Source: Camellia lanceoleosa
Lineage: Eukaryota; Streptophyta; Magnoliopsida; Ericales; Theaceae
DNA length: 64,000 nt
Assembly (NCBI GenBank): GCA_025200525.1
Contig: CM045761.1
Location: 75,235,551-75,299,550, forward strand
Direction: 5' to 3'
Position 1 is the stretch's first letter; every line of letters starts with the position of its first letter. The notes under the pieces were generated by a model. It was not told the DNA's origin. It saw nothing but the letters and a program-made list of their open reading frames with translations, and made no database searches. A program made the translations under genes and the position numbers. Positions 4,397 to 52,340 of this stretch are shown in pieces.

Positions 4397-4462
4397 GGCT
4401 ACAAAAGGTGGCAAGCCAGCTAGAAGAAGTGGTCGGCCGTACAGTAATGTGGCCGGTCGACC
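4397..4462. repeat. GGCC-word array a, LTR A
   Basis: GGCC or one-mismatch words at 4397, 4414/4418, 4435 and 4451/4455, roughly every 17-21 bp. GGTCGGCC and GGCCGGTCGACC also form a local inverted repeat. This is the weakest of the Ogre-type arrays. Confidence 0.5.
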
Positions 4463-5858
4463 ACTAATGTTTGGTATTGCCCTGCTGCAACAGATACAAA
4501 ATAGAGCACAAACAGAGTATTTTTAGGGGTTGTTTGTCTACCCTGCCTTTTCTTATCATCAAACAGGTCAAAGGAGGGGTTGGCTTGATTAGCAAGCCAT
4601 CAATCGACGCAAAGTCATTGCGTGATGACTTATGAACCAAAGGATACAATCTCAATAAATGATAATGAAAAGACTCATAAACCCCCTCCCTCTCATGATC
4701 TTGATCAAGGGAAGTGGTTGACATTGACTCTTGAACCGTTTTCATCACTAACAAGTATGAAACAACTCAAGATTCAATGGGTTCAATTAACGTCCGATTG
4801 AACCCCCAAACCATTTTATTATCTTGTTACCTATTTTAGTCCAATTTTGTTTGCCTTTTTTAATTACCTTTCCATTCATTAAGCATTTTAGTCCAACAAT
4901 GAAGATTAAGTCCATTAATGGAGAGAAGTGTCAAACAAAGGGTTGTTTTAGGCATGAAAGAGATGTCAAGCCTTTGGTAATGAACCTCCGAAAAGATTAA
5001 ACTATTAAGCACAAGGATCTCTATCTCAAACTTAAACAATAATCAGTTGAAATGACTCTCAAAGCAATGAAAAAAACCAAGAAAAGAAGGAGAGTGCAGA
5101 GGTGATTAGAGATGAATACAAGTATGCAAATCACTAAATAAATGCTATTAACTCAAATAGGTTGGTGTCTAATGCCTGAAACACCAAACCTATGAGGACT
5201 ATTATATTACAAGCATACTATACAAAGCATAAATGAAACTAACACATAAAAAATAGTCCTAAATTAGGCTGAAACAGTGCTGGAATTAAGGTAAAAAAAA
5301 AAAACTAAAAAAAGTTAGCTAACATAATGGAAGAATTAAGCTAGCAAATAAGCCAAACGAGGGGCAGCTAACCCCTTCATTTTTGGGACTTCAAAACAAC
5401 ATTTCTAGCCTCTGAAATCCTCTGAAATCCAGTGGTAAAAAGCTCAAAAAAAAGTTGATAAAAAGATGGGAAACACAAGGGCAATAGCTTGGAATACAAG
5501 GTACAGAGAAAGGCGGTCCACCCGTCTACCTTGGGTAGATTTTAACCACAAGTTTCAGCCCATAAAAAATAGTTGAAATTTTTCCAAAAACAGCAAGTAA
5601 AGATGGTAAATAAATAAGGAAAATAAGCTAAGAATTATACCTCTTGAAGAGGAGTAACACCTTGAGTTATAAACCGCCAATTTCTCACCTTCAAGAGCTA
5701 ATGTTCAAGCTCAATAACCTCAACAATGAACCCTTAAAATTTGGTTTAGAAGGTCTAGGTAAGGTGTGTATAGGTTACAAGGTAGAGAGGGTTATTTTTT
5801 TCTAAGAATTTTTCTTCCTCAAAATTTTTCTAACCTCATTTTATGAGAGGGGGTCAAG

Positions 5859-5983: not shown

Positions 5984-6025
5984 CGGCTAGCCACTAAGGA
6001 GATGGCCATACACTCATTTGTGGCC
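5984..6025. repeat. GGCC-word array b, LTR A (decayed)
   Basis: Words GGCT at 5985, GGCC at 6004 and GGCC at 6022, upstream of the predicted TATA box, in the same relative position as the arrays in the other Ogre-type LTRs. Confidence 0.45.
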
Positions 6026-6223
6026 TACAAGCCCCTGGGTGGTTAGGCTTGAAAAAAAACTGTTTTGGTCCAAAAGTGGTGCAAGGTTTGTAGGTGTTTG
6101 AGGCTCAAAACTGAGGCTTTTTGCGCAGGAAATTTAGTGTTTGACAAGCATGAAAATTCATTATTGGGTGATCAATCAGTGGCGCCCAAGTCTTAAGGTG
6201 TGGTAAAAAATGGGGTGTCTACA

Positions 6224-12936: not shown

Positions 12937-13951
12937 CCTCTACTAATCATAATATCCGATTTTGAAAATATTACGCGTTTTTATTCCAGTTATTAGCCTA
13001 GAATTACTATGTTATGCGTACAACAAAAAAGTATAGACCAAATCGCCTAAATTGGAACAAAACATTTTGTGTTTGTTTCGAAAATGGTTTGCTACTCGCA
13101 AGTAGGCTAAAATGTAGGTTTTGCCACCCTCGAGTGGGCTTTTTAGAAAATAGGGTTTTGCCACTATCTAGTGGGCTTTAAAACTCACAGTTTTAATGCA
13201 TTATTCCGATTTAGGTAATTCGACCTCCATCCACAGGCATTCAAGTAGTTATATCACATAAGTAGCTAGCCTCATGGTAATCATGCTATTATGACAACAT
13301 TTGCACGCATGCGGTATGCTAAAGCATAAAAGCTTACCTAGTACTCCAAGCCAAAACAGAAACTAGTTAGTAATCATATGCATGACCCTAGTTCATGTTA
13401 ATATGGCTAATGCAACACATGCAGGATGCAGCTAGAATAGGCTCGGCTACCCCTAAAGATGGCATGTGAAATGCTGCAACTAACAAGTACTCAACTTGGA
13501 ATTGAAATACTAGTGCAGTTAGCATGATGCGCCGAGCCCGGTGTATGTAAGACAAATGAATGGATGCAAACATGCTATCATGAGTATGCTAATTGAAACA
13601 TGCCCTAAACTAACCATCGAAAGCTAGTAAATAAAAGGGAAGAAAGACGTGGGGTTGGAAGACATGCACACACTCACACACACTTATTACACAATTACCC
13701 TCGCTCGGAGGGTCCGAATAAATATTACAAAACAAATAAATAATTAACTACTCTAGCTAATTTACTATAAAAAAAGGAAGATGGCCGCAACCCCGCCTCG
13801 GAATGATGAGATGATGCATGCTCGATCCGTCTTGCCCAAAAACTTGCTGCCATAGCACTGTTGCCTCTGTTTACACTGCCTTGCTCCTCTGAGGATCACA
13901 CAAATTTCCAGAACTGCTTTGAATTATTCCCTGAGTGTTTTGGAATGCCAC

Positions 13952-14058
13952 CGGCCACATTTCAACTCCACCAGCCATGGGAATGTTCTTGTCGGCCAAA
14001 TGTTGGACCACCAGCCAGCCCCAGATGGTCGGTCGGCACTGTAAGTGGTCGGCCGGCC
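13952..14058. repeat. CGGCCA-word array a, LTR B left
   Basis: CGGCCA or CAGCCA at 13952, 13972, 13993 and 14012, then CGGCA and CGGCCA further on, about 20 bp apart. Two words carry a G-to-A change compared with the right LTR. Confidence 0.75.
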
Positions 14059-14098
14059 ATTACTTCCTGCAGAATCCTACAGCTGACAGCAGCAGAAG

Positions 14099-14103: not shown

Positions 14104-14404
14104 TGTAACAAGCCCGCGAGGGACCTCGCGCTACAGTTTTGACTCGATTTCGTGTCATGGTTCTAAATTTGAACCAAAGAGTCCAAATCCGGCAAATCAT
14201 TTTGAGAAACAGATTTTTAGAAAAGAAGTGCCAAACATGGACTGCTTTGCCAGATACAGAGTCGCCACCTAAATATTTTTTATGGGGGAATTTAGGAAAC
14301 CCTGACTCGGTGCCAAAGGCCACGTGTCTGTCATCACCAAAGTTGCCTCGGCTCGGGAACTTGGGTACGATTGAGGAAGGTCAGCTATGAGCACCCCCTC
14401 TCGC

Positions 14405-14420
14405 CCGATCCGAAGATCGG
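14405..14420 (-). other. Predicted UUCG-loop RNA hairpin, nested LTR
   Basis: Same perfect CCGATC-TTCG-GATCGG hairpin as in B. Confidence 0.6.
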
Positions 14421-15393
14421 CCTCTACTAACCGTGATATCCAATTTTGAAAACGTTATGTGTTCTTATTCCCATTATTAGCCTAGAGTTACTATGTTATT
14501 CGCACAGCAAACAAGTATAGACTAGATCGCCTAGCTTGGAAACAAGCATTGCATATCTGTTTGTTTTGGAAAACGCTTTGGGATTTGCTACTCGCGAGTA
14601 GGCTAAAATACGGATTTCAATGAGTTGTTCCAACTCAAACAATCCAACCTTCACCCACAGGCATTCAGGCAGTTTAACATATAAGTATCTAGCCACATGG
14701 TAAGCATGCTGTCATGGCAACACTCACACGCATGCAAGGATGTTAAAGCATAAAATACTTACAAAGTACTCCGTGCCAAAACAAGAACATGTTAGCAATC
14801 AAAGCATGATCCAAGGCCACGTTAAGTGCCTAATGCATCACATACAGAATGTCACTAGAATAGGCTCGGCTAATCTAAGGATGACATGTGAAATGCACAA
14901 GTAGCATGTATTCAAATTTATTTTGAAATATAATGCAATTAGCATGGTGCGCCGAGCCCGGTGCATGCAATACTGATGAATGGTGCACACATGCATAGCA
15001 TAAAGTATGCTAAATTAAATATGACCTAATACTAACCATCAAAGAAGGTAAGTAAAAAGGAGAAAGAGGTGGGGGTTGGAAGACATACACACGCTCACCC
15101 ACACTTATTACAAATTCGCCCTCGCTCGGAGGGACCGAAAGAATATACAAATCAAATAATGAATTAACTATCATAGCTAATTAATTATTACAGGCCAACT
15201 AAATTAATTAAGCAAATTAATTAATCTAATAAAGCAATAAACAGCAGCCTCGGGGAGAGGGCTCGATGCATGCGTGCTCGGTTCTGCCCGGAAATCCACT
15301 GTCATGCTCAAGATGCCTCTGTTTTCCCTGCTCTGCTCCTCTGATGACTGCCAAAGTCTCAGGGTTTGCTCTATGGATGCCAGGGAACACCAC

Positions 15394-15478
15394 TGGCCAT
15401 GTAGAATGGTCACCGGCCACAAGCTTGATCCATCGGCCAACAATGGTGGCCAGTTGGCACTAAATGTGGCCGGCCGGA
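15394..15478. repeat. GGCC-word array a, nested LTR
   Basis: Words start at 15394 (TGGCCA), 15414 (CGGCCA), 15434 (CGGCCA), 15455 (TGGCA) and 15475 (CGG of CGGCCGG): spacings 20, 20, 21, 20. Confidence 0.8.
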
Positions 15479-17135
15479 CAAAAGTTCTTGCAGAAACTGA
15501 TTTGACAGCAGCGGAGGACAATACTTGGCATGGCAATGCATTTCAAGCAATGTATGCACCAATCACACCCGATATCATGTTTATGACTCAAAGGGACATG
15601 AGCCTTGGTTCTCGGACCACCAATCGCGCATTTCCATGCATGATGGCCCAAGAAGCCAAGTATGCATTTTTAATATGGAATGCAATGCACGTAATCAGGC
15701 CAAGGGGGGACTTAACCTCTATCATAAGCAATTCAAGAGGCCAAGTATGCTAATGTAATGCAACCTAAGCATGTTAACTAGGCATGCAACATGGCAATGC
15801 AAAGAGGCATACAAAACATGCAAGGCATGAGACAATGCAACCAATAAGCATGCAAGGCTAATGTAGGCATCCAAGCATGCAAGCCAATATGTGACTTCAT
15901 TCAATCATGTAATTCCAAACATGTAACACACTCACCAATATGCTACAACATACAAGGAGCATATGCAACAAGCAAAGAGATGGACTTAAACATGATTTAG
16001 GTAGCCCTAACTAGGCCTAAAATAGTGGCAAAAAAAAAACTCAAGAAATGGGACCAAACACACATACACACATGCACATGTTAATAGGCCAATACTTAAG
16101 CACATAAAGGCAACTTTTAAGCACACTTAAAAGAGGCAAACATGGACAAACGGCATGCATTAAACTCTAAAAATCATGCAAGAACATGGTGCCAAACCAA
16201 GCAGACAAGATAGGCTAAACATGCAACAATGGCCCAAAACTTAAGGCTAACAAGCCAAAATGTAAAGGAGCTATACAATACATGGCAAGTATGACTCAAG
16301 CAATTTAAAACAGAGCTAAAGCATACAAAAACATGCATTAAAGCTTCATGAAGCTAGGCCTAAAACATGCTAGAACAAGGGCTTACAACCTAAGGCATGT
16401 TAAGACCTAAACATGGCATTACAAGGCATGTATGCTAAGCAAGCATGCTGTACCAAAACCAACTAAAAACAGAGGCATATTATGACATAGTAAGCCCAAA
16501 AATCAATTAAGGCATGGTCAACACACACTTAAACATGGTGCTCCCTCAAGAGGCAAAAATAGCCCTTTTCATTGACAACAAGGAGAGGGGGTGGCCCTGT
16601 CCTTCCTAGGACCTCAAGGCACCATCCTCACCTCTGAAATCCCTCAAGATTTCAATGGTGAGGAGGCCCAAACACTATGGTCCCGGAGCTCACACAAAAT
16701 GGCACAAAACAAGGGCCAAACAAGGCTTAAGAGCGGTCAAACAACCTCAAACCACAAAACACTCTTAACAAACTATTTAGAGGCCTCAAAAACAGAACTT
16801 TTATGTGTTATACACTAAGCCCAAAAATAGATGCAAGATAGGCAAATAATCTATGCAAGAATGGGGAAAAAAGGGACAAAAGCCTTACCCTTGAAGACTT
16901 TCTTCACAAATGAAGCTCCGGCAGCTTCTTGAGGTTGAAACCAGCTCCAAAACACTAAAAATAACCCTCAAGGGCCTCAGCTCCAAGAGATGGTGTGATG
17001 GTGTGTGTTTGTGAGCTAAAATGAGACAAAACACACACTATAGAGATAGGATACAAACCAAACCCTAACCCTAGAACTCAAACCCTAAAAATGGCTGTCT
17101 AAAAAATGTCCCCCAACAACAAGAGAGAAAACCTC

Positions 17136-17145
17136 TCTTTATAGA
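17136..17145 (-). promoter_or_regulatory. Predicted TATA box, nested LTR
   Basis: The minus strand reads CTCTATAAAG about 475 bp from the LTR start at 17618. Confidence 0.45.
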
Positions 17146-17276
17146 GCTTTTTTTTTCTTGTAAAACTTACAAGACAAGCCTCTAAAGAGAGAGATCCCTC
17201 CATACACGTGTATGGAGGGGAGTCAAATGCAAGCCAGCTGTGACAAAATATCTGCAAAAGCAGATGCACAGTAGTC

Positions 17277-17394
17277 GGCCGGCCAAAGATGCAGATGACC
17301 AAAAAAAGATAACTGGCCGGCCATATATAATGCCGGCCGGCCAAACATTTGGCCGGTGGCCACAAAACACAGCCGATGGCCTCAAGCCCTGGCC
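17277..17394. repeat. GGCC-word array b, nested LTR
   Basis: Words at 17277, 17297, 17315/17319, 17335/17339, 17358 and 17378, with a second track at 17351, 17371 and 17391; spacing is mostly 19-20 bp. It lies just upstream of the predicted TATA box. Confidence 0.8.
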
Positions 17395-17618
17395 GGTGAT
17401 GGGTGGGGATGGTCTACAAGCCCTACCTTGCCTCTCAAAGGCAAAACACAAGTGTTTGGTGCAAAACCTAACACAAAACGGTCGAGTCGAGAGATCCTGA
17501 GGCGAGGCGCGTTGCCAAGGCTTCCGGGAACTCAAGACGAACACAAACAAGGGTGATCACTGAGTGTTCAATCAGTGACGTCCAAGTCTTGAGAACGGTC
17601 AAAAATGGGGTGTCTACA

Positions 17619-19605: not shown

Positions 19606-19874
19606 ACAAAGGAAAGGCTCCAAGCTTCTTAGAGAAGCTATTGCAAAAAGGTCAAAAGGACCAAGCTTCCAATGGAAGCTATCCCAAAGGTGCAAGCTTC
19701 TTGAGGAAGCCAAGACAAGGGGTCAAAGCTTCCTCAAGAAGCTTTGAGCAAAGGGTGAAAAAAAAAAGGTCAAAGGTGCAAAACAGCCACATATATGCAT
19801 GGGGCAGGTCTTGTGCATTCCAGCTAGCACAGCTGGCATGCACCATGCCTGAAAAAAAATAAAAAGGTGGTACC

Positions 19875-20001
19875 GGCCAGAAAAGGAGGCCATCGGCCAA
19901 ACATATGGTCGGCCGACCACACCAAATGCCGACTGGCCAATGGTATATTTCACCAATGGCCGATAGCCTCAAAACATGGCCGGTGGCGTCAAGCCATGGC
20001 C
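19875..20001. repeat. GGCC-word array b, LTR B left
   Basis: Words at 19875, 19895, 19915 (GACC), 19935, 19958, 19978 and 19998: spacings 20, 20, 20, 23, 20, 20. Confidence 0.85.
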
Positions 20002-20220
20002 GGTGGGTGTCAGGGGTAGCTAACAAGCTACTCTCTACCCTTAGAAACACAAGTGTTTGGTGCAAAACCAAACACAGAACAGTCGAGTTGAGAGATCCTG
20101 AGGCAAGGTACATAGCCGAGACCTCCGGAAACTCAAAACGAAACACAAACATGGGTAATCACCAAGTGTTCCGGCGGTGACGTCCAAGTCTTGAGGATGG
20201 TCAAAAACGGGGTGTCTATA

Positions 20221-20236
20221 GTTGCCCCTTTTTGAC
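20221..20236 (-). promoter_or_regulatory. Polypurine tract of element B
   Basis: The minus strand reads AAAAAGGGGCAAC immediately before the 3' LTR, the primer for second-strand synthesis. Confidence 0.7.
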
Positions 20237-20719
20237 AGAACTCGAAAGTCATAACAATGATGGGAGTGATTGTCAAAGCCCAGAGATGACCCAGTTTTGA
20301 CAAGGCCGAAGACTTGGACAAAGCACACATGCTACAGATAAAGATATGCGCCCGAAGGCAGGGGCAAAATGAAACCGACAATGCAAGAAGCCGAGCATAA
20401 CTTATGATCATGCAAAGAAAGCTGTGACGAAACATAACAATGCAATAGTTTTAAGCTAGCATACACCAAACTACACTACAATGCAGTGAGAGTGTATGAG
20501 AATCATGTAATTCTCGCTACGTTTCACGCGGAGAATACAATACTGTGTTGGTTAAATGCAGTCGTGCGACTTCAAATGAACCATACATACAATATCGTGC
20601 CTGAAAAAGAAAGAAAACTTAACAGGTACAATATTGTTAGCAACATGCACATTAATACAATTGAAAGTGCGTGACAACGCAAAGCAAGCGGGAAGCATAA
20701 CAATGCTGTGAAGGCACAA

Positions 20720-21106
20720 ACACATGTAAGTAAAGAACACGGGACAACGTGCGCAATGTGTGAAGGTGTAGACACATGTAAGTAAAGTATACGCGACAAC
20801 GTATACAATGTGTATAAAAGGAAACTTGAACATATGTAAGTAAAGCATGTGGTCAATGCGTGCAATGTGTATAGAAAGGAACTTGAACACATCTAAGTAA
20901 AGCATGCGGTCAACGCGTGCAATGTGTATAGAAAGGAACTTGAACACATGTAAGTAAAACATGCGGTCGACACGTGCAATGTGTATAGAAACTTGAACAC
21001 ATGTAAGTAAAGCAACGCACGTACGCAAGCAATGTGTATAGAAAGAAACTTGAACACATGTAAGTAAAGCATGCGGTCAACACGTGCAATGTGTATAGAA
21101 ACTTGA
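20720..21106 (-). repeat. Minisatellite of about 57 bp, seven units, in the element B 3' region
   Basis: Seven units beginning ACACATGTAAGTAAAG and ending in AACTTGA or a variant, 52-58 bp each. Open frames on the minus strand across it (20552-21146) encode only the repeat. Two units and a broken third recur at 37107-37243. Confidence 0.9.
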
Positions 21107-21826: not shown

Positions 21827-21929
21827 GTGTGACCCCGCAAGAATCAATCACCGGAGGGCATCGGTAGAGGTTCCAACCACAATCCCTTAGCATGTTCAAC
21901 TCATAAACAGCTCATGGAACAAGAAGGAA

Positions 21930-22017
21930 GGCCACCAGCCAGAGGTAAAGGCCATCGGCCATGAGAAATGGCCATCGGCCAAAAGTGATAGTCGGTCGGC
22001 ACTACATTTGGCCGGCC
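21930..22017. repeat. GGCC-word array inside element B
   Basis: Two interleaved tracks: GGCC at 21930, 21950, 21970 and 22010, and AGCC/GGCC at 21937, 21957, 21977 and 21998, each about 20 bp apart. It is the same array type as in the LTRs, here next to the antisense ORF. Confidence 0.8.
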
Positions 22018-22132
22018 GTCCATAAATTGCCAGAACCAGCATAATGCTGACATCTGTCCTCCACTCAACCATATCTTCTACAAAAGGCTTCAGCTTCGTG
22101 GTTCTTCTCAATTCAACACGAATTTGTTCCCA

Positions 22133-23391
22133 ATGGAAGAGTTTCTTGCCCAAAATCTCACAATTTGGATTAACAACTTGGATGGCTCGGAAAAGCTGAA
22201 TTTCCGGGGCTTCGGCATAAACGCACTATTCACTCTGAGTCGTACTCCGCTGCACCTTCCGTTTCTCCATGCCACAGCGAAATTTTGGAATCCGGTAACA
22301 CATGTCTTTTGTTTTGGCAGGCAAGAGGTATGTCCTACCTTTGAAGATTTCCAAGCTCTAATGGAATCTGAACGCCACGAGGAGATCTTACCCCAGCTTA
22401 ATTTTGGCCATGCCCAAACCTTAGGGTGAATGTGTGGACTCACTATGTATGACGCTCGGTCTCCGATTTGTGACGGAATGCTGGATATTCCGAGTTTGAT
22501 TTGTCGTTTTTCTGATGCCGGTGACCGCGGTGACCATCATTGGCAAGGCTTCCGGCGACACGCCCTCTGTTTGTGCATGCTATCTCATTTTTTGTTTGCC
22601 TCAGGCTCCGGAGGATCTAGCGTTCGATTGATCGAGGTTGCCCAAGGCTTGAAGGAGGGCAAGAGTTGCATTGCCATGACTCTGGCTAAGACATTGATGG
22701 GCTTGGACTCCTTTTATCGCCGAGAGAAAATCAGATTTGCGGGGAGTCCACTACTACTGCAGGTAATGTTTCCCACCCAATCTCACATATATATTGCTCA
22801 CGTCACTCAACCCTCGAGCTCGGCTTTTCTCACAAAACCCTTTTCTCACTTTTTCTCTCATCATACATCTCTCTATTCTTTATTCTCTCATTTTTCATCC
22901 CTTCCCAGTTGTGGTTGATGGACAAGTTGCAGGTTGTGGACTCTTGCCCAGCATACTCAGCTCGCGGTTATTTCTTTAGGCAACGTCTGGTCGATGCCCT
23001 TGATGCGGTTGATGGTTTGACTGGATGTGTAGCTTGTCCGCAGACCGCATTGCTTGGCGGTGCCCTTGGTTTAACCTACCGGCAATGGGCTCTGACATGT
23101 CCCGGCCCAGGATTGATTGATTGGCTTTACTCCTGTGTTTCTATTTCCGTTCGGTTAACGCCCGATTAAGCCATGATCGGACTTGCCTGCGAGAGGATAG
23201 AATATCGGCCGCCTTTACATTCGCGCGGCTTGTTCGGCGAGCGCGGCGTGGGGACAAGAGAGCTCCTGGCCCCCGCTTCCCCTTTTAGTTGCACTTTGTC
23301 TGATAAGTGCACAGATTGGCTCAATGAAGAGGCACAGATCGGGCCTAACAGCATCGAGGCCGACCGACTCGGGAGGGCGAGGAATATCTGA
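22133..23391 (+). pseudogene. Antisense ORF of element B: plant-mobile-domain / DUF7745-like protein with intron
   Basis: Runs opposite to B's pol. Exon 1 (22133-22762) contains FWNPVTHVFCFGRQEVCPTF, then W-x-x-F-x-x-HAL and SPLLLQ. A clean intron, GT at 22763 and AG at 22908, joins in phase to LWLMDKLQVV in exon 2 (22909-23391). The W-x-P...F...PT-x-E/D-x-x-x-L pattern followed by an L-x-x-WL-x-x-K/H-L block resembles the plant mobile domain (aminotransferase-like) and DUF7745 families common in plant transposon-derived proteins. Stops at 22427 and 23167 break it. The frame is open upstream of the first ATG, so the true start is uncertain. Antisense extra ORFs downstream of pol are known in the Tat lineage. 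The family assignment is from memory. Confidence 0.55.
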
Positions 23392-24054: not shown

Positions 24055-24990
24055 TCAGGGGTAATATTTCTTCAACTTGTCCATGTTGATTGGTTGTGAG
24101 AACTCTAGGCCATCTAGGTCCATCAGAACGACAGCTTCACCCGACCAAATAGACTTAATGATGTAGGGACCAGTCCAATTGGGTCTGAACTTGCCCCTTG
24201 GGTCGTGGATGGGAGCTCGATTGTCCTTGAGTACCAAATTTCCTTCCTTTAGATTCCTGGACTTAACCTTCTTGTTGAAAGCCTGGGCAATTCTGCGCTG
24301 ATAACCTTGAACATGGTACAGTGCTTTCAATCTCCTCTCGTCAAAGAGCATAAGTTCCTCAAATCTGCTCTGCTGCCAATCTGCTTCGCCTATCTGGTAA
24401 TCAGCCAACACTCGCAAAGACGGAACCTCAATTTTGATAGGTAGAACAGCCTCCATCTCATAAACCAAGGAATACGGAGTCGCCCCAGTAGAAGTTCTGA
24501 TTGAAGTTCGGTAGCCCCACAGAGCAAACGGCAACTTATCTGGCCAGTCCCGGTAGGTTTCCACCATCTTCCGCAATATGTGCTTGATGTTCTTGTTGGC
24601 TGCCTCAACTGCTCCATTGGTTTGCGGCCGGTATGTAGATGACTTATGAAAAGCCACATTGTATTTCTCCAACAAGTCAATCACTTCTTTCTTGAAATGG
24701 GAACTATTATCTGAAATTATCTCATTTGGGACTCCGTAACGACAGGTGATGTTGTTTCTAATGAACTTCGCGACATGTGAAGCCTTCAACATTGCATAAG
24801 ATTGGGCCTCGACCCACTTTGTAAAGTAATCTATCGCGACCAGGATGAATTCATGCCCATTCAACCCCTTCGGAGTAACAACCCTGATCACATCGATTCC
24901 CCAAACTGAAAATGGCCATGGCGAAGTCATGTTGTACAGCTTCGACGGCGGGATGTTCATGCGGTTTGCATGGATCTGACATTTGTGGCA
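24055..24990 (-). pseudogene. Element B integrase, catalytic core and C-terminus
   Basis: Inserts the element cDNA into the genome. The 301-residue open segment carries the core triad: VAIDYFTKWVEA (Asp), IISDNSSHF (Asp) and GAVEAANKN (Glu). The C-terminal domain follows with GNLVLK, GKFRPNWTGPYII and DLDG..PINMDKLKKYY. The N-terminal zinc finger is in the next segment upstream, separated by a TGA stop at an Arg position (R-stop-CHKC). It ends naturally at 24058, so the polyprotein C-terminus is preserved. Confidence 0.93.
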
Positions 24991-25752
24991 TCACCGAACA
25001 AAGCCGATACAATCCTCCTCCATGGTAGACCAGTAGTAACCCTGTCTGAGGATCTTCTGAGCCAACATTACCCCGTTCATATGTGCACCACATTCTTCTC
25101 CATGGATGGCCTCCATCAGGCGCTTTGATTCTTCAGCTTCTACACACAGCTTATGCATTCCCAGATGACCTCTCTTATACAGCTTACCCCCGCAGATGAT
25201 GAACTGAATAGCCATTCTTCTGATTGCCCTTTTATCCTTGGCATTTGCCCTTGGTGGATACGTCTCTTTCTCCAGGAAGTTCCAAATGTCGTAATACCAG
25301 GGGTTGTCGTCCTGAGCCTCATCTATAGCAGCAATTGATTCATACGCTGGCACAAACTTCTGGTCAATGATGACTGGACGCATCCGGAATCCAAATAGGA
25401 TGTCTATCATAGAAGATAGAGTTGCTAGTGAATCTACGAACCTGTTGTTCTCTCTTACTAGATGAGCAAAGTTTAGTTTCTCAAACCGAGGAATTAACAA
25501 ATCCAAGGCCTGGTGGTACATTATCATCTTTTCTTCCTTGACTTTCCAATCTCCTTTTGCTTGAGATACAACAAGGTTCGAGTCCCCGATGACGTCTAGC
25601 CGTTTTGCCCCTAGTTCTAGGGCTGCTTCTAGACCGGCAATGCATGACTCATATTCTGCTTCGTTATTCGAGACTTTGAACTGGAGTTTGAATGCTAAAG
25701 GGATACGGGAATTGTCAGGTGCTATCAACAACACTCCTATCCCATACCTGTA
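24991..25752 (-). pseudogene. Element B second (archaeal-type) RNase H and integrase zinc finger
   Basis: The N-terminal part has NNEAEYESCIAGLEAAL (Glu), VIGDSNLVV (Asp) and NRFVDSLATL (Asp), which with DGASN at the end of the preceding segment make the RNase H carboxylate set. It is distinct from the Gypsy RNase H upstream, so B has the dual RNase H arrangement known for Tat elements. The C-terminal part is the integrase HHCC finger (CGAHMNG...QGYYWSTMEEDC). A stop separates DGASN from YRYGIGVLL, explicable as a Gln codon turned to TAA. Confidence 0.9.
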
Positions 25753-26364
25753 TTAGTTCGACGCTCCGTCAAAGTACATCGTCCAAGTTTCATCTTCGAT
25801 GTGCAAAATGGCCTCATCTGGAAATAAGTACTCAACTGTTTCACCCCCTTCCACTGGATGATCGGCTAAGAATTCTGCTACTGCTCTTCCCTTGACTAAC
25901 TTGCATGTCACATATTTCAGATCGAATTCAGAAAGCAACAACAACCAACGAGCTAGCCTACTCGTAAGTGCCAGTTTCTCGAAAAGATATTTGATGGGAT
26001 CCAGTCGTGAAACCAACATTATGGAGTGAGCTAACAGGTAGTGCCGCAGCTTCCTAGTAGCCCATACCAAGGCTAAGCAAGCCTTCTCCAACGGTGTGTA
26101 ACGAGTTTCATACTCTAACATTTTCTTGCTCAGATAGTAGATGGCCCTTTCCACCTTGTCTTCTGATTCTTGTGTGAGCATGCAGCCCATTGTAGTTTCA
26201 GTCACTGAAAGGTACAATATCAACGGTCTCCCCGGCTCTGGCAGTGACAACACAGGCGGGTTCTGTAAGTATTCCTTGATCTGTTCAAAAGCAGCTTGGC
26301 ATCGGCCGTCCCATTGGAATTTCTTTCCTTCCTTCAGGAGACCAAAAAGTGGTTCACAAGTCAA
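25753..26364 (-). pseudogene. Element B Gypsy-type RNase H
   Basis: Degrades RNA in the RNA-DNA hybrid. It includes the connection ending of reverse transcriptase (CEPLFGLLKEGKKFQW), then the RNase H region with ILYLSVTETTMGCMLTQE, the AIYYLSKKMLEYETRYTPLEKACLALVWATRKLRHY signature, and FLADHP. The usual first catalytic Asp is replaced in LYLSVTETTMG, suggesting weakened activity, as described for the Gypsy RNase H of dual-RNase-H elements. It ends with DGASN of the second RNase H. Confidence 0.9.
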
Positions 26365-26505
26365 GGTTAATTTTGAGATAATCGTCTTATGAATTGCACT
26401 TTACCCAAAAAGCCTCACACCTCCTTTTCAGTCATTGGTGGTGGCATTTCTAAGATGGCCTTGATTTTGGAAGGGTCGACTTCGATGCCCTTTGTGTGTC
26501 GAAAC
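26365..26505 (-). pseudogene. Element B reverse transcriptase thumb, frame-broken
   Basis: In a shifted frame this reads TKGIEVDPSKIKAILEMPPP then MTEKEV-stop-GFLG, the standard segment after the YVDD palm. One base-level frame change sits near 26506 and one stop (Arg CGA to TGA) near 26410. Confidence 0.8.
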
Positions 26506-26991
26506 CTAGCATTTTCCTCTTTGTAACACGAATGTACACTTACGAGGATTTAACATGGCGAATTCTCTGATCCTTTGAAAGAACTTTTGCAAGGCGGTGT
26601 AGTGGCCCTCTCTTTCTTTGGACTTGACAATCATGTCGTCCACGTACACCTCAATGTCTTTGTGGATCATGTCATGCAATATCGTGGTCGCAACCCGTTG
26701 ATATGTAGCTCCAGCGTTCTTCAACCCAAATGGCATCACTCTGTAGCAGTAGGTCCCCCACGGGGTGGTGAATACAGTATTCTCCTGGTCTTCAGGTACC
26801 ATCACTATCTGATTGTAGCTTGAGAAGCCATCCATAAACGAAAGCAAAGCATGCCCCGCTGTGAAATCCACGAGCTCATCAATATGCGGCAAGGGAAAGT
26901 CGTCCTTCGGACTAGCTCTATTCAAATCCCTGAAATCCATGCACACCCGGATCCTGCCATCTTTCTTTGGCACTAGAACAATGTTTGCCAA
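26506..26991 (-). pseudogene. Element B reverse transcriptase core
   Basis: Copies element RNA into DNA. Conserved blocks in order: VPKKDGRIRVCMDFRDLN, PLPHIDELVD, LSFMDGFSSYNQI, KTVFTTPWG-like NTVFTTPWGTYCYRVMPFGL, KNAGATYQR and the active-site YVDDMIVKS. Continuous with the upstream segment except for a TAG at 26992 where relatives have Trp (YPT-stop-LANIV). Confidence 0.95.
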
Positions 26992-32504: not shown

Positions 32505-32791
32505 GAAACTGTGGATGCGCCCTGAGGGCCTTATGCTACCACAGTTTGGACTCAAATCGTCACGGTTCCAAATTCGGCAAATCGTTTTGAGAAAACAAAT
32601 TTTTTAGAAAGAAGTGCCAAACATGGACTACTTTTCCAGATACAGAGTCGCCACCTAAATATTTTTTAATGGGGGAATTTAGGAAACCCTGACTCGGTGC
32701 CAAAGGCCACATGTCCGTCATCACCAAAGTTGCCTCGGCTCGGGAACTTGGGTACGATTGGGAAAGGTCAGCTATGAGCACCCCCTCTCGC

Positions 32792-32807
32792 CCGATCCGA
32801 AGATCGG
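32792..32807 (-). other. Predicted UUCG-loop RNA hairpin, LTR B right
   Basis: CCGATC-TTCG-GATCGG on the element strand, about 280 bp from the LTR 3' end. Confidence 0.6.
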
Positions 32808-33860
32808 CCTCTACTAATCATGATATCTGATTTTGAAAACATTACGCATTCTTCTTCCGGTTATTAGCCCAGAATTACTATGTTATGCGCACATCAAACA
32901 GGTATAGACCAAATGGCCTAAATTGGAACAAAACATTTCGTGTTTGTTTTGAAAATGGTTTGCTACTCGCAAGTAGGCTAAAATGTAGGTTTTGCCACCC
33001 TCGAGTGGGCTTTTTAGAAAAGAGGGTTTTGCCACTATCTAGTGGGCTTTAAAACTCACAGATTTAATGCATTATTCCGATTTAGGTAATTCGACCTCCA
33101 TCCATAGGCATTCAAGCAGTTATATCATATAAGCAGCTAGCCTCATGGTAATCATGCTATTATGACAACATTCGCGCGCATGCGGTATGCTAAAGCATAA
33201 AAGCTTACCTAGTACTCCAAGCCAAAACAAAAACTAGTTAGTAATCATATGTATGACCCTAGTTCATGTTAAGATGGCTAATGCAACACATGCAGGATGC
33301 AGCTAGAATAGGCTCGGCTACCCCTAAAGATGGCATGTGAAATGCTGCAACTAACAAGTACTCAACTTGGAATTGAAATACTAGTGTAGTTAGCATGATG
33401 CGCCGAGCCCGATGTGTGTAAGACAAATGAATGGATGCAAACATGCTATCATGAGTATGCTAATTGAAACATGCCCTAAACCAACCATCGAAAGCTAGTA
33501 AATAAAAGGGAAGAAAGACGTGGGGTTGGAAGATATGCACACACTCACACACACTTATTACAGAATTGTCCTCGCTCGGAGGGTCCGAATAAATATTACA
33601 AAACAAATAAATAATTAACTACTCTAGCTAATTAAATATTACAAAACTTCTAATTAATTAACAAATTTACTATAAAAAAAAAAAGGAAGATGGCCGCAGC
33701 CCCGCCTCGGAATGATGAGATGATGCATGCTCGATCCGTCTCACCCGGAAACTCGCTGCCATAGCACTGTTGCCTCTGTTTACACTGCCTTGTTCCTCTG
33801 AGGATCACACAAATTTCCAGAACTGCTTTGAATTATTCCCTGAGTGTTTTGGAATGCCAC

Positions 33861-33968
33861 CGGCCACATTTCAACTCCACCGGCCATGGGAATGTTCTTG
33901 TCGGCCAAATGTTGGACCACCGGCCAGCCACAGATGGTCGGTCGGCACTGTAAGTGGCCGGCCGGCCA
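33861..33968. repeat. CGGCCA-word array a, LTR B right
   Basis: CGGCCA at 33861, 33881, 33902 and 33921, CGGCA at 33943, CGGCCA at 33963: spacings 20, 21, 19, 22, 20. Confidence 0.85.
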
Positions 33969-35985
33969 TTACTTCCTGCAGAATCCTGCAGTTGACAGCA
34001 ACAGAAGGCAAGCAGTGTATGGCATGGAATTTTCAAGCAAATGTGGGCATGACCACACTCCCTATCATGCAATAAACTCAAGGGAGCATGGCCCTCGACC
34101 CTCGCGCCATCAATTATGCACGACGGCCTAAGAAGCCAAGTGTGCCATTTAATGTAAAATGCATGCAACAATCAAATGAAAGCTAACACCCTATCATGTT
34201 GAGATCAAAGGCATCGGCGATCGAGGATTGAGACGTGTTTCGTCACTTTGAGTACGAACACTTCTAAATCCTCATGTTTGGTTTGACACCCCAAACCAAG
34301 CCATGCAATGCATGCATGCAATGTGGCTCAATTGTGCAACATGGGACTAAATTACAAGGCATGCCAAATGCAAGATAACCTAAGCATGCAAATGTAATGT
34401 ATTAGGCATGCGAGATGCAATGCAATGCAACCTAATATGTAATGCGAACATGGCATAATGCAAGCATGAAACTAAAGGCAACAAATCAAGCATGCAACCA
34501 TACACAAGAGTGGACTTAGACTAAAATGGGAGGCCTCAGCCACACCCCAAAACAGTGGCCAAAAATGCCAAAAGTGATGGACAACATGCATAACAAACAA
34601 GCAAACCAAAGAGCCTAAAGCTAAGGCATGGAAGGCTATTCTCAAGAGCACTCAAAGGTAAGATACATTAAAATCAAACACTCATGTTAAACTCTAAAAT
34701 GCATGCAAAAGATGACACCAAAACATGTTAGGGAATAGATACAAAATAGAGAGCATTCAAGGCCATCAAAGGGAGTATCCTACTACAACCACCCCAACCA
34801 CTCATGGCATGCACTTTTCAATACAAAGTAGAGTTTCAACATGCAAAATGAGCCCCCAAAACCCACTGATATGGCAGCCCCAAAGACTTAAACACTTAAG
34901 CATGCACAATGCTCATTTCAAGGCACAACAAAACAACTCTTCAAAGCATGAAAGTAGTAATGAATGCAAGCATACAAGCATGGTTTATGGACTGAAACAT
35001 GATCCCTAATGATCCCAAATCATGAGAATAAGCTAGGCTAAGCATGCTAGAGACCCACGTGCTCAAGGCTCACAAGCGAAAATGCAAAGAGGCTATCCTA
35101 AGCATGGAAAATATGGATAAAACAGCACCCAACAGTCCTTGAGCGTGGCAAAATAATGCTAAAACCTTCATGAAGTTAAGCTATAACATGCAAGAATCAT
35201 AGCCTAAATGCATGGGATACTTCTAGGCAAAATGGTGGAATACAAGGCAAGTATACTATACATGCAAGAGGCCACAAATCCGACCAAAAACAGAGGCAAC
35301 ATATGACCAAATAACATCCAAAAACTTCTGAAATGGGGCCAAAGACAACCAAGCATACATGCTACCTTTAAGAGCCAAAAACATGCAAAGATGAGAGACT
35401 AAGGGAGAGGGGTGTCCCTCCCCTATGCAAGACTTCAAAACTCCTTCTTCACCACTAAAAATCCACTGGATTTCAGTGGTGAGAAGGTCAACACACAAAA
35501 GTAACCAAAGCTTAACAAAGAGAGCACCAAAAGGGCCAAACAAGGCCTAAGAGAGGGAGGTCGACCCCCAACACCAAAACAACCTTAATGAAGTATCTCA
35601 AGCATGAAAATACAAGACTTTTTTCAGTTATACACAAAGTCTAAAACAATAAGCAAGATAGGAAAAAGTCTAGTGCAAGATTGGAGAATCTAAAGTAAGA
35701 GTGTTACCCTTGAAGAACCTTTGAAGAAAAGCAAATGCAGCCCTCCTCCTCTGATCAAAATCAGTTCAAAACCTCAAGAACAAACCCTCAATGCCTCCCA
35801 AAATCGAAGTATGGCGCAGTAGTGTGTGTCTTAGTGCAAAACTAAGAAAAAATCAACCTTTTGGCCCTTAAACACACACACAATGAAGAGAGAGAGGGAG
35901 ATATAGAGAGAGAAAGTGCATATATCAGAATATATATGCTTTAGGTCTGATTTTGCTGAACCAAGACAAAGGAGGGTGGTGGTCT

Positions 35986-35994
35986 CTTATATAG
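35986..35994 (-). promoter_or_regulatory. Predicted TATA box, LTR B right
   Basis: CTATATAAG on the minus strand, about 615 bp into the LTR. Confidence 0.5.
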
Positions 35995-36263
35995 ACAAAG
36001 GAAAGGCTCCAAGCTTCTTAGAGAAGCTATTGCAAAAAGGTCAAAAGGACCAAGCTTCCAATGGAAGCTATCCCAAAGGTGCAAGCTTCTTGAGGAAGCC
36101 AAGACAAGGGGTCAAAGCTTCCTCAAGACACTTTGAGCAAAGGGTGCAAAAAAAAAAGGTCAAAGGTGCAAAACAGCCACATATATGCACGGGGGCAGGT
36201 CTTGTGCATTCCAGCTGGCACAGTTGGCATGCACCATGCCTGAAAAAAATAAAAAGGTGGTAC

Positions 36264-36391
36264 CGGCTAGAAAATGAGGCCATCGACCAAACATATGGTC
36301 GGTCGGCCACACCAAATGCCGACCGGCCAATGGTATATTTCACCAATGGCCGGTAACCTCAAAACACGGCCGGTGGCCTCAAGCCATGGCC
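36264..36391. repeat. GGCC-word array b, LTR B right
   Basis: GGCC or near-words at 36265, 36285, 36305, 36325, 36348, 36368 and 36388: spacings 20, 20, 20, 23, 20, 20. It lies upstream of the predicted TATA box. Confidence 0.85.
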
Positions 36392-36610
36392 GGTGGGTGT
36401 CAGAGGTAGCTAACAAGCTACTCTCTACTCTTAGAAACACAAGTGTTTGCTACAAAACCAAACACAGAACAGTCGAGTTGAGAGATCCTGAGGCAAGGCA
36501 CGTAGCCGAGACCTCCGGGAACTCAAAACGAAACACGAACATGGGTAATCACCAAGTGTTCCAGCGATGACGTCCAAGTCTTGAGGACGGTCAAAAATAG
36601 GGTGTCTACA

Positions 36611-37243
36611 GTTGCCCCTCTTTGACAGAACTCGAAAGTCATAACAATGACGGGAGTGATTATCAAAGCCCAGAGACGACCCAGTTTTGATAAGGCCGAA
36701 GACTTGGACAAAGCAAACATGCTACAGATAAAGATATGCGCCCGAAGACAGGGGCAAATTGCAACCAACAATTCAAGAAGCCGAGCATAACTTATGATCG
36801 TGCAAAGAAAACTGTAACAAAACATAACAATGCAACAGTTTTAAGCTAGCATACACCAAACTACACTACAATGCAGTGAGAGTGTAAGAGAACCATGTAA
36901 TTCTCGCTACGTTTCACGCGGAGAATACAATACCTGTGCGGTTCATCTGGTCATGCCAGCTTCAAATGAACCATACATACAATATCGTGCCTGAAAAAGA
37001 AAGAACTTAACAGGTACAATATTGTTAGCAACATGCACATTAATGCAATTGAAAGTGCGTGACAACGCAAAGTAAGCGGGAAGCATAACAATGCTGTGAA
37101 GGCACAAACACATGTAAGTAAAGAACACGGGACAACGTGTGCAATGTGTGAAGATGTAGACACATGTAAGTAAAGTATATGCGACAACGTATACAATGTG
37201 TATAAAAGGAAACTTGAACATATATAAAAGGAAACTTGAACAA
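36611..37243 (-). mobile_element. Truncated 3' end of a second tandem Ogre-like copy
   Basis: Contains the polypurine tract (AAAGAGGGGCAAC on the minus strand at 36611-36623) and non-coding 3' sequence matching 20221-20840, including two minisatellite units and a broken third. Homology stops at about 37243 inside a short repeat of AAAAGGAAACTTGAACA, where coding sequence of another transposon begins. Everything further 5' in this copy, and its other LTR, is missing. Confidence 0.88.
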
Positions 37244-38505: not shown

Positions 38506-39634
38506 CCTCTACTAAGCATGATATATTGTTTTATAAACACATGTATTCTTATTCCGATTATTAGCTAATATTACTATGTGATGCGCACAACATACAAGTA
38601 TAGACTAAGATCACAAGAATTGGAACAAAACAACTCGTGTTTATTTTTCAAAAATGGTTTGAAAATGCCACCCTCAAGTGGGCTTAAAACATGATTTGCC
38701 ACTCCACAAAGTGGGCTTAAAACTCACATTTGATGAATTGTCCTAATTCAAGAAACAAAGCCTTCATCCACAGGCATTTATGTAGTTATAACAATTAAGC
38801 AAATAGCCTCATGACAAACATGCTAAACATGGCAACACTCACACTCATGCAAGGATGCTAAAGCGTAAAAACTTATAGTGTACTCCAAGCCAAAACAAAA
38901 AAACTAGTTAGAAACAATGCATGATCCTAACTATGTTTAAGATGCCTAATGCAACACATGCAATAATGCAATTAAATAGGAACGGCTATCTAAGATGGCA
39001 TATGAATGCAACAATTTTGATACACATATTCAAATAAGTGTATTGAAATACAATGCAGTTTGAATGATGCGCCAAGCCCGGTGCATGCAAGACAAATGAA
39101 TGAATGCAAACATGCAAGCATAAGGTATGCTAATTGAAATGTGCCCCTAAACTAACCATCAAAAGCGGATAAATAAAAGGGAGAAAGATGTGGGGTTGGA
39201 AGACATGCACACACACACGCACACTTATTACAACATTGCGCCCTCGTGAAGCAGGGTCCAAATAAATAAGCTAACTAGCTACGCTAAGCTAAGCTAAGCT
39301 AACTATTACAAAACAACAAATTAACTATGCTAGCTAATTAATTATTCCAACACAATTGAACAACTAGCTATGCTAAGCTAATTAAAATATTACAAGACAG
39401 ATTAAACTAATTAATTACAACACATGTATTAATCAGCTACCACTAGCTAATAAAGCAATAAAGTGGCCTCGCAGGCGAGGGAGACATGCATGCTCGGTTG
39501 GCGTCATCTCGAAAATCCATCGCCTTACCGTTGGTTGTCTCTGTTTGCACTTGCTTCTGTTTTCTGAACATTTTACCAACTTCAGACTGCCTTTGCTCCA
39601 ACACATGAACACATTGGACAACCTTCGCACTGGT

Positions 39635-39697
39635 GGCCGGTCAGCTACCTCACCTGGCCGGTCGGCTATTGCAAGTGGCCGGTCAGCCACCCATTTT
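39635..39697. repeat. 21-bp array a, LTR C
   Basis: Three adjacent 21-bp units beginning GTGGCCGGTCAGC or a close variant. GGCC at 39635, 39656 and 39677; AGCT/GGCT/AGCC at 39643, 39664 and 39685. Both tracks have exact 21-bp steps. Confidence 0.88.
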
Positions 39698-41532: not shown

Positions 41533-41724
41533 GAAAGAGTTCTAGAGAAATGGAGAGAAAATTTTTGCTCCAAAAATTGCTAACCTCCTAAAACAAGAGA
41601 TATGGTCTGAATATATAGCAAAAACAAGAGCTTTGGTTGAAATATCTAATTTAGAGACAGCTAGAGCATTTGGAAGACAGCTGGAGTAAAATATTTGCAA
41701 ATTCTGAGCATTCTGGACATGGGT

Positions 41725-41790
41725 GGCCGACCAGCTACTTTTGTGGATGACAAGAAACCCTTCTGGCTGACATATGGCCAACACATGGCC
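41725..41790. repeat. GGCC-word array b, LTR C
   Basis: GGCC at 41725, GGAT at 41745, GGCT at 41765 and GGCC at 41787; upstream of the predicted TATA region. Confidence 0.6.
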
Positions 41791-42585
41791 GACAAGCTTC
41801 ACTGGTGGGCAAAAATTGATTTCTGGCCCCAACTTCAATTAGGCATATCTCCTTTTTTTGGACTCCTTTGCAAGTCATTCTTATGTCTAAATTGAAGCCC
41901 TGGAAGTAATCTTTCCAATGGTGGAAGCCTCACATCAAAATTCCAAGTGTGCTAAGAGATATTCCTCTTTTAATGAAGACTGCTCAGTTTCAGTCCAACC
42001 GGATTGATGCCTAACTTCAACCAGCCATATCTCCCTCATTGGCTCAGATTTAGGAGATTCTTGAGTGAAAAATGAAGCCCCAGAAGTCCACTTTCCAACG
42101 GTGGTGGCATCATATCTAAAATCCAAGTGTACAAATGGATAGGCTCAATTTAGCGAGGGCTGCTCGACTCTCTCTTAACGGTTTATGCCCATTTTCTTCC
42201 CCAACTTGGTTTCTTCCCTCTCCTCTAATTTTCTTCAAACCCAAACCTCTAAACAAGATGTTTTAAAGATTTTTTAAAAGAGTTCAACTCTCCTTCATTT
42301 ATTCCACTTTGTCCTTTTTCGGTTTACCGAAAAGCACAACATTTAACAAAATGCGAGTCTCGGAACATCGTAGAAACTTTTTTTCAAAAATGTTTTGAAA
42401 GAGAGGGTTTTAAGGTCTAAAATCGTTGGTCAAAATAGTTTTAGTCCAAAAATGGGGTGTAAGGTTGGGATTTGACTCTCTCCTTGCCGAAGAAATCGAA
42501 CCTTTGCATAGCATAGCCTGCACCATCGAATGATCCAATCAGTGGCACCCAAGTCTTAAGGACGGTCAAAAATGGGGTGTCTACA

Positions 42586-50822: not shown

Positions 50823-51430
50823 TCAGTTCAAAAGTCTCCGGATTCGGAGCCCCATCGGTGCATGACACCTTTAGGCCGATTAAGCCTCTGGATTCGGAGC
50901 GCCCTTCGTGGATATCACGATTGGCCAATATTCAAGTCTCTAAATTCGAAGCCCCATTAGTGCAAGACACTTTTGGGCCGATTAAGCCTCCGGATTCGGA
51001 GCACCCTTCGTGGATATCATGATTGGCCAATATTTAAGTCTCTGAATTCGGAGCCCCATCAGTGCAAGACACTTTCGGGCCGATTAAGCATCCGGATTCA
51101 GAGCGCCCTTCGTGGATATCACGATTGGCCAAGACAAAGAGCCTCCGAATTCGGAGCCCTATCCATGCAGGTCATGTTTGGGCCGAATAAGACTCTGGAT
51201 TCGGAGCGCTCTTCGTGGATATCACGATTGGCCAATATTTAAGTCTCCGAATTCGGAGCCCCATCCGTGCAGGTCACGTTCGGAGCCCCATCCGGATTTG
51301 GAGCGCCCTTCGTAGATATCACAATTGGCCAAGAAAAAGAGCCTCTGAATTCAGAGCCCCATCCGTGCGGGTCACGTTTAGGCCAAATAAGACTCCGGAT
51401 TCGGAGAGCCCCTCGAAAATTAAAGCATGC
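50823..51430 (+). repeat. Minisatellite of element D (A'B' dimers, about 102 bp)
   Basis: About eleven units of roughly 50 bp. One type contains a variant of GGTGCATGACACCTTTAGGC, the other CTTCGTGGATATCACGATTG or a variant. They alternate strictly, giving a dimer of about 102 bp; one unit is truncated near 51280. It lies just after pol, in the position of the hypervariable 3' UTR repeats described for Tat and Ogre elements. Element E has the same repeat inverted. Confidence 0.92.
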
Positions 51431-52199: not shown

Positions 52200-52340
52200 T
52201 AGATCGGCCTTAGGCCTGACAGATTTTGCAGATTGGCCATAGGCCTAACAGATTCTACAGACTGGCCATAGGCCTAACAGATTCCACAGATTGGCCATAG
52301 GCCTAACAGATTCCACAGATTGGGCATAGGCCCAGATATC
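52200..52340. repeat. Short tandem repeat of about 30 bp within the solo LTR
   Basis: Five units of GGCCATAGGCCTAACAGATT plus CCACAGATT or variants (the first reads CGGCCTTAGGCCTGACAGATT in pieces). Confidence 0.8.

Follow-up and report, generated by a model that had tools for sequence, protein, structure and literature searches.

Dyad words at a 20-21 bp step recur in LTRs and upstream of an antisense gene in Tat-type retrotransposons of Camellia lanceoleosa

Introduction

Repeated cis elements in U3 are known from Tnt1, a Ty1/copia retrotransposon in which the BII-box forms enhancer repeats. The arrays described here share this repetition and this location, but they have another sequence and lie outside Ty1/copia. 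VANDAL elements, a further point of comparison, are DNA transposons.

Sireviruses, which are Ty1/copia elements, carry palindromic repeated motifs (RM boxes) upstream of the TATA box of their LTRs and upstream of env, and the available part of the source calls these motifs Sirevirus-specific (PMC2829016). Among systems whose binder is known and encoded by the element itself, the VANDAL elements of Arabidopsis come closest (accessible text of PMC5735166). There, short target motifs of VANC proteins are multiplied as tandem repeats in noncoding regions, with a fast turnover of units, and binding by VANC21 to its motif YAGTATTAY was shown. Antisense genes are also known from Tat elements; that of Grande has its own promoter and encodes a nuclear protein (PMC7264820, PMC11963269, available parts). 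On the host side, plant-mobile-domain proteins act in silencing and in the expression of genes with a promoter motif, with DNA contact not demonstrated in the available parts of PMC7156037 and PMC9899485.

Here, we analyze arrays of GC-rich words in a stretch of 64,000 nucleotides from Camellia lanceoleosa (hereafter the window). The initial annotation of the window had reported such words every 20 bp upstream of the TATA box in LTRs and knew of no earlier description. This was wrong for the kind of array, since Sirevirus LTRs have palindromic repeated boxes in the same place, as far as PMC2829016 is available. The version in Tat elements (Ty3/gypsy), accompanied by an antisense gene, is new. 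No description of an array shared by LTR and antisense gene was found among the listed titles and abstract openings of the literature on Ogre repeats, U3 and enhancers, on Ogre in Camellia, on antisense accessory genes and on Tnt1 boxes, and no mention of a shared promoter module was found in the available parts of PMC7264820 and PMC11963269.

Results

Four LTR types occur in the window: those of an element termed B, a solo LTR nested in element B, solo LTR C, and LTR A. Element B lies on the minus strand. By self-comparison, its right (5') LTR covers 32505..36608 (about 4.1 kb, with TGTAGACACC at the start and an approximate 3' edge), and its left (3') LTR is split into one part at 20226-17619 and another from 14103 to about 12619, with the nested solo LTR (14104-17618) between them. 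On the right copy, the matches flanking this insertion have about 5 bp in common, as expected of a 5-bp target duplication. The pieces of RT, RNase H, a second RNase H (RVT_3) and INT at 24055..26991 (minus strand) follow the Tat-type order; Pfam recognized RVT_1, RT_RNaseH and RVT_3, and the INT piece weakly (rve_3, E 0.063). With a second RNase H before INT, and a long region between pol and the 3' LTR that contains an antisense ORF, element B is a Ty3/gypsy retrotransposon of the Tat kind. These Tat features are what was tested, and “Ogre” is a label of the initial annotation.

The sequence upstream of the right LTR (36609-37227) matches the 3' internal end beside the left LTR (20227-20839) with 95.5% identity over the joint match, and for this reason element B seems to belong to an LTR-internal-LTR-internal array, either tandem or recombined. 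Further repeats in the window are a tandem repeat with a 57-bp unit at 20772-21101, in the 3' internal region, where it overlaps a probably spurious open frame, and related 51/102-bp tandem repeats in opposite orientation, 12 kb apart (50831-51415 and 63075-63998). A 29-bp tandem repeat at 52201-52332 has GGCC spaced by 7 and 22 bp, but its word is a different one and it is apparently unrelated to the arrays.

The array that had first been noticed lies in U3 of the right LTR of element B (36264..36396, minus strand). We compared sequence identity at fixed lags with dinucleotide shuffles (95% null maxima 2.9-3.3). Lag-20 identity was above chance in four of five U3 arrays, all on the minus strand: that of the right LTR (z 7.5), that of the left LTR (19874..20007; z 6.6), that of the nested solo LTR (17272..17402; z 6.6) and, more weakly, that of solo LTR C (41720..41800; z 3.6, null maximum 3.3, with additional hits of the word matrix introduced below). 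The 20-bp step is therefore real, and it holds for the arrays that had been proposed for the nested solo LTR and, more weakly, for solo LTR C. The seven words listed for the right LTR, between 36265 and 36388, comprise five exact GGCC and two with one mismatch (GGCT at 36265, GACC at 36285), with steps of 20, 20, 20, 23, 20 and 20 bp. Exact GGCC at 36278 and 36375 had escaped that list. The word matrix also gave a cluster of hits in this array.

The left LTR had been said to repeat this array exactly; in fact, it differs at 10 of 133 aligned bases, compared with 159 of 3815 in the rest of the LTR. For LTR A, the term “decayed” array (5985..6032, minus strand) was generous. Lag-20 identity there is not significant against dinucleotide shuffles (z -0.7) and there is no matrix cluster, but lag 19 reaches z 3.5, which leaves a weak, possible remnant. 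A strong inverted repeat about its centre is a further property of the right U3 array of element B (36264-36396).

A TATA-like box follows the U3 array at 103-271 bp in all four LTR types: 271 bp in element B (TATATAAG in the right LTR, 35986..35993, minus strand, LTR position 616), 129 bp in the nested solo LTR, 103 bp in solo LTR C and 119 bp in LTR A, where the array itself is not significant. The nested solo LTR has one further TATA-like box within its U3 array. The reported position between LTR start and TATA box thus holds for the U3 arrays, but arrays are found elsewhere too.

In all four LTR types a further (second) array is found 1.4-2.0 kb past the TATA-like box, and the internal region holds a third array; both had been missed in the initial annotation. 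In the right LTR of element B the second array (33855..33972) lies about 2.0 kb downstream of the box and shows GGCC steps of 20, 21 and 19 bp, as well as a matrix cluster. Its counterpart in the left LTR (13945..14063) also forms a matrix cluster. By lag identity alone, the second array of element B is not significant (lag-20 z 1.6 right, 1.9 left), and the step is visible only in the words. The step is clearer in the nested solo LTR (15388..15484; lag-20 z 4.1) and in solo LTR C (39632..39692; 21-bp step, lag-21 z 5.9), and borderline in LTR A (4404..4466; matrix cluster with steps 21 and 20, lag-20 z 3.1). The internal array (21925..22026, plus strand) has a lag-20 z of 7.0.

Training of the matrix (PWM) used units from the internal array and from the second LTR arrays and kept the U3 arrays out. 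The matrix found 20 same-strand clusters of at least three hits in the window, compared with a mean of 0.8 and at most 4 in 60 shuffled windows; as it was trained on units of the window, detection favors relatives, and a few units in the clusters are one or two bases out of register. Nineteen of these clusters coincide with U3, second LTR or internal arrays and one with the 29-bp repeat.

After the second array, all four LTR types share a block (32576-33595 in the right LTR, and equivalents). In three of the four types this block holds TGTAATAAGTGTG, perhaps as a polyadenylation region. A transcription start site directly after the second LTR array is possible.

The word underlying the arrays is a 14-bp dyad, TGGCC-N4-GGCCA, repeated every 20-21 bp. 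In 16 arrays of different types, the exact dyad occurs 10 times, against 0.05 in shuffles; this excess is inflated, since it was a matrix of such words that had located the majority of these arrays. In the same arrays, the half-site recurs in direct orientation 15 times at period 20 and 11 times at period 21, where shuffles gave 0.06 and 0.02. For 70 words drawn from 15 arrays, the mean is 0.93 bits at the ten half-site positions and 0.54 at the four centre positions, with three half-site positions below 0.6; these means were taken by hand, and the choice of arrays and units helps both this contrast and the dyad excess. Independently of the matrix, TGGCC recurs at a spacing of 20 bp 15 times (against 0) upstream of the first group of antisense genes described below, and at 21 bp 28 times (against 0.06) upstream of the second group. 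The layout is that of a predicted dimer site repeated every two helical turns. The dyad would thus suit a dimeric binder, in line with the putative multimeric DNA-binding protein proposed earlier.

An accessory gene on the plus strand, antisense to gag-pol, has its ATG 107 bp after the end of the internal array. In element B the first part of this gene (22133..22918, with the ATG at 22133) is interrupted, as the open pieces 21992-22429 and 22430-22918 are separated by one in-frame stop; longer open copies exist. The first piece of the protein gave a weak Pfam match to DUF7745, with scores for the pieces (18.2-19.6 bits) below the curated cut-off of 26. Camellia homologues have names such as “Aminotransferase-like plant mobile”; several carry a precomputed PF24924, and two also PF10536. 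The protein may accordingly be a relative of DUF7745/plant-mobile-domain proteins, a weak assignment. We had also considered TRP28 (PF04195), the antisense domain expected from the available part of PMC11963269, but Pfam gave only the weak DUF7745 match.

The left continuation of element A contains another interrupted copy of the gene (51-59% amino acid identity over pieces), and here, too, an array of five words, with steps of 26, 20, 21 and 21 bp, ends 101 bp before the gene start. Genome-wide, we examined two groups of 40 gene copies in the 3.0-Gb genome, each chosen along a ranking: the first from 135 scored matches (31559 first-look candidates), the second from 150 scored of 15990 candidates, with a distant homologue as query. 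An upstream array of at least three words was present in 37 of the 40 copies of the first group (all except L048, L049 and L055) and in none of 400 shuffles. In the second group, 18 of the 40 copies had at least three words and 37 at least two (shuffles 0/400 and 8/400, respectively). Copies within a group share ancestry, and these counts are therefore not independent events. The feature is real and widespread in the genome.

The distance from array end to ATG is similar in both groups, with a median of 111 bp in the first (37 of 40 copies measurable, range 105-145) and 112 bp in the second (35 of 40, range 62-158). Between array and ATG, a TATA-like box was found in 33 of these 35 second-group copies, about 59 bp after the array (18 TATAAA, 13 TTTAAA, 2 TATCTT). 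The first group has no clear TATA box: TATAAA occurs in 1 of 37 copies and a poor TATCTT in 19 of 37. The pattern list for both groups was drawn up after viewing the sequences and is without a shuffle control.

Since gene and arrays travel together (at least three words in 37 of 40 copies of the first group, at least two in 37 of 40 of the second, and element A), the antisense protein could itself be the binder of the arrays, at the LTR as well as at the gene's own promoter, and could thereby activate or unsilence the element, as VANC proteins do. In the VANC pattern, too, noncoding regions of the element hold tandem repeats of short motifs (PMC5735166, available text), and among related elements the antisense proteins are either located in the nucleus or have a predicted ability to bind DNA (PMC7264820, PMC11963269, in the parts available). 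A host factor that drives the gene could equally use the arrays, though. In addition, Pfam recognized no DNA-binding domain in the antisense protein beside the DUF7745 match below cut-off, and an AlphaFold model of a homologue (P0008, 21 sequences) was unusable, with a pLDDT of 41.8. We therefore regard such a self-encoded loop as unlikely.

Two members of the second group, L113 and L114, were examined over 7 kb, a stretch with the LTRs outside it. RT, RNase H, the second RNase H and INT are encoded on the strand opposite to the gene, which is thus antisense here as well (69 and 73% amino acid identity). Compared with element B, their internal regions show 82-84% identity; the alignment halts just before the array stretch and restarts about 100 bp beyond it, and a four-word array is present in the stretch that fails to align. 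This pattern points to an array that was rebuilt, not just inherited, in these two copies.

Conservation was assessed across two sets of copies. Among 20 loci, 15 have an alignable second LTR array, and 14 of these 15 reach three words at threshold (L025 does not); this count omits L001-L008, because they overlap with other sequence. The second LTR array was compared among 16 copies that had been fetched with a query not including this array. Pairwise identity was 0.81 in word columns compared with 0.65 in the rest; the downstream flank had 0.78, the upstream flank gave no value, and a few units are off the common register by one or two bases. The contrast between words and spacers was largest at the true phase among shifts from -10 to +10. 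In the 40 copies of the antisense gene promoter, identity was 0.76 in words and 0.63 in spacers, with 0.75 in the upstream flank and 0.84 in the stretch from array to ATG. Here, the phase peak was shallow, at shift -1/0, and a value of 0.76 was obtained at shifts 0, +2 and +4. Hence, the step is kept while the intervening bases change, as had been proposed, and words are kept relative to spacers, but not relative to all neighbors. Copies L009-L028 had been picked by U3 similarity, and the conservation of their U3, being biased, was not used.

A single recent tandem duplication, in which spacers would align as well as words, is ruled out, as spacers diverge more than words in both the 16-copy and the 40-copy set.

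A broader neutral scenario would be a minisatellite in which the repeats arose by slippage and spread when reverse transcription copied them from one site to another, so that spacing and words reflect drift and ancestry. Gains and losses of whole units fit this scenario (a 20-bp unit is missing in one copy, and about one unit is extra in others), as do the two-and-a-half-unit tandem match in the U3 array of element B and the absence of better conservation in words than in nearby flanks. So does the sharing of spacer letters beyond the words between internal and second LTR arrays (spacer shuffling, p 0.005 and 0.01), which makes copying between sites likely. It accounts less well for the similar median distance to the start codon in both gene groups, for the persistence of arrays where the DNA no longer aligns, and for the greater variation of spacers than of words, across copies and also within arrays (0.35 vs 0.60, a contrast partly circular because units were picked by half-site score). 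On balance, we consider the neutral scenario quite unlikely.

In the same spacer-shuffling comparison, which comprised 56 orientation tests with a p floor of 1 in 201, the nested U3 array matched the internal array in reverse complement, spacers included (p 0.005). Together, the shared spacer letters and this reverse-complement match suggest that the module was probably copied between sites.

The arrays also have a common pattern of strands and steps. The signature −−−+− with steps 20, 20, 23 and 18 occurs in the internal array (L029, plus strand), in the second array of the nested solo LTR (plus strand of the window) and in U3 of a C-like LTR (L032, LTR sense). Many copies of the U3 array of element B show −−−+−+ with steps 20, 20, 33, 18 and 22, which resembles this signature plus 10 bp. 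These common signatures suggest that the module may point at the unit it precedes, a polarity that we regard as a lead. The tally of alignment scores is less clear than the signatures, and polarity is mixed: the orientation was favored in 7 of 8 pairs of U3 and internal arrays, 19 of 32 pairs of U3 and second LTR arrays (11 against), 8 of 16 pairs of second LTR and internal arrays (8 against) and 3 of 6 pairs among U3 arrays. In U3 of family B (L009-L028), the central step is 33 bp compared with 23 in several modules; the 10 bp correspond to about one helical turn, so the phase is kept.

Finally, words with dyad symmetry might act as inverted repeats, through folding of the transcript, small RNAs or methylation, as reported for Sirevirus palindromes; small RNAs accumulate on the palindrome clusters of maize Sireviruses, as told in the available part of PMC10760457. 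On either strand, the right U3 array of element B folds far better than its shuffles do (z -6.4 and -5.8), and internal arrays have a mean z of -2.9, with 29 of 40 below -2. But U3 of solo LTR C is unremarkable (z -0.9 and 0.1), as is the second array of element B in the LTR sense (z -1.0; other strand -3.6), and any dyad array folds, so that folding may be a by-product. Given this unevenness across arrays, an RNA hairpin was set back from main function to alternative. The ratio of observed to expected CpG, 0.70 in the arrays and 0.67 in the window, leaves a simple CpG-island reading unsupported and weakens the idea of a methylation signal put forward in the initial annotation. Taken together, a role as RNA or silencing signal appears quite unlikely.

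Discussion

The arrays probably represent a shared cis-regulatory module of Tat/Ogre-like elements that would be bound by a dimeric factor and would co-regulate sense and antisense transcription. Each module would offer mostly 2-7 dyad-symmetric binding sites, TGGCC-N4-GGCCA, at 20-21 bp, which would place dimers on one face of the helix. It is located upstream of the LTR promoter, presumably acting on the sense transcript, and also ahead of the antisense gene, where the typical distance to the start codon is about 110 bp. A sequence-specific dimeric DNA-binding factor may bind the sites cooperatively and, once bound, could drive or tune transcription in both directions. Some observations speak against this model. 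In the antisense gene promoter, words (0.76) are no better conserved than the upstream flank (0.75) and are surpassed by the interval from array to ATG (0.84), and the second LTR array sits downstream of the TATA-like box. Moreover, the second array of element B, unseen by lag identity, and the first gene group, without a clear TATA box, make the shared-module model slightly weaker and the neutral minisatellite slightly stronger.

Compared with Sirevirus RM boxes, as described in the available part of PMC2829016, the likeness is considerable. Both are short, GC-rich, palindromic boxes in many copies, found before the LTR TATA box and before an extra gene (env in Sireviruses), and the binder is named in neither case. 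In contrast to RM boxes, the arrays in Camellia lanceoleosa belong to Ty3/gypsy elements with a Tat-type pol, not to Ty1/copia; they have a regular step of 20-21 bp; the extra gene is antisense; and the half-sites TGGCC/GGCCA with an N4 centre replace the CGG-CCG core. By analogy, the arrays would work like RM boxes, but they are no member of that group.

With VANC target repeats, the arrays share the multiplication of a short motif in noncoding regions of the element and the turnover of units, but VANC21 is a proven self-encoded binder and the binder here is putative (PMC5735166, available text). The antisense gene resembles those described for Tat elements in lying downstream of pol, and that of Grande in having a predicted upstream promoter of its own; it differs from them in encoding a possible, weakly supported relative of DUF7745/plant-mobile-domain proteins (compared with the available parts of PMC7264820 and PMC11963269). 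Were this protein the element's own regulator, binding phased dyads at its own promoter and at the LTR promoter, the outcome would be a feedback or anti-silencing circuit with a logic like that of VANC or of deltaretrovirus antisense regulators. We hold this to be unlikely; if true, it would place such a circuit inside a Ty3/gypsy retrotransposon.

The function of Tat antisense accessory genes is an open question in the available parts of PMC7264820 and PMC11963269. With a countable motif common to the two promoters, the question can be addressed directly by asking whether a single protein binds a single short probe. Returning to the shared module, it would show that palindromic promoter arrays have arisen in two unrelated superfamilies of plant LTR elements. 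It also yields predicted positions for host factors or small RNAs in a seemingly very abundant family (31559 first-look candidates, 135 scored).
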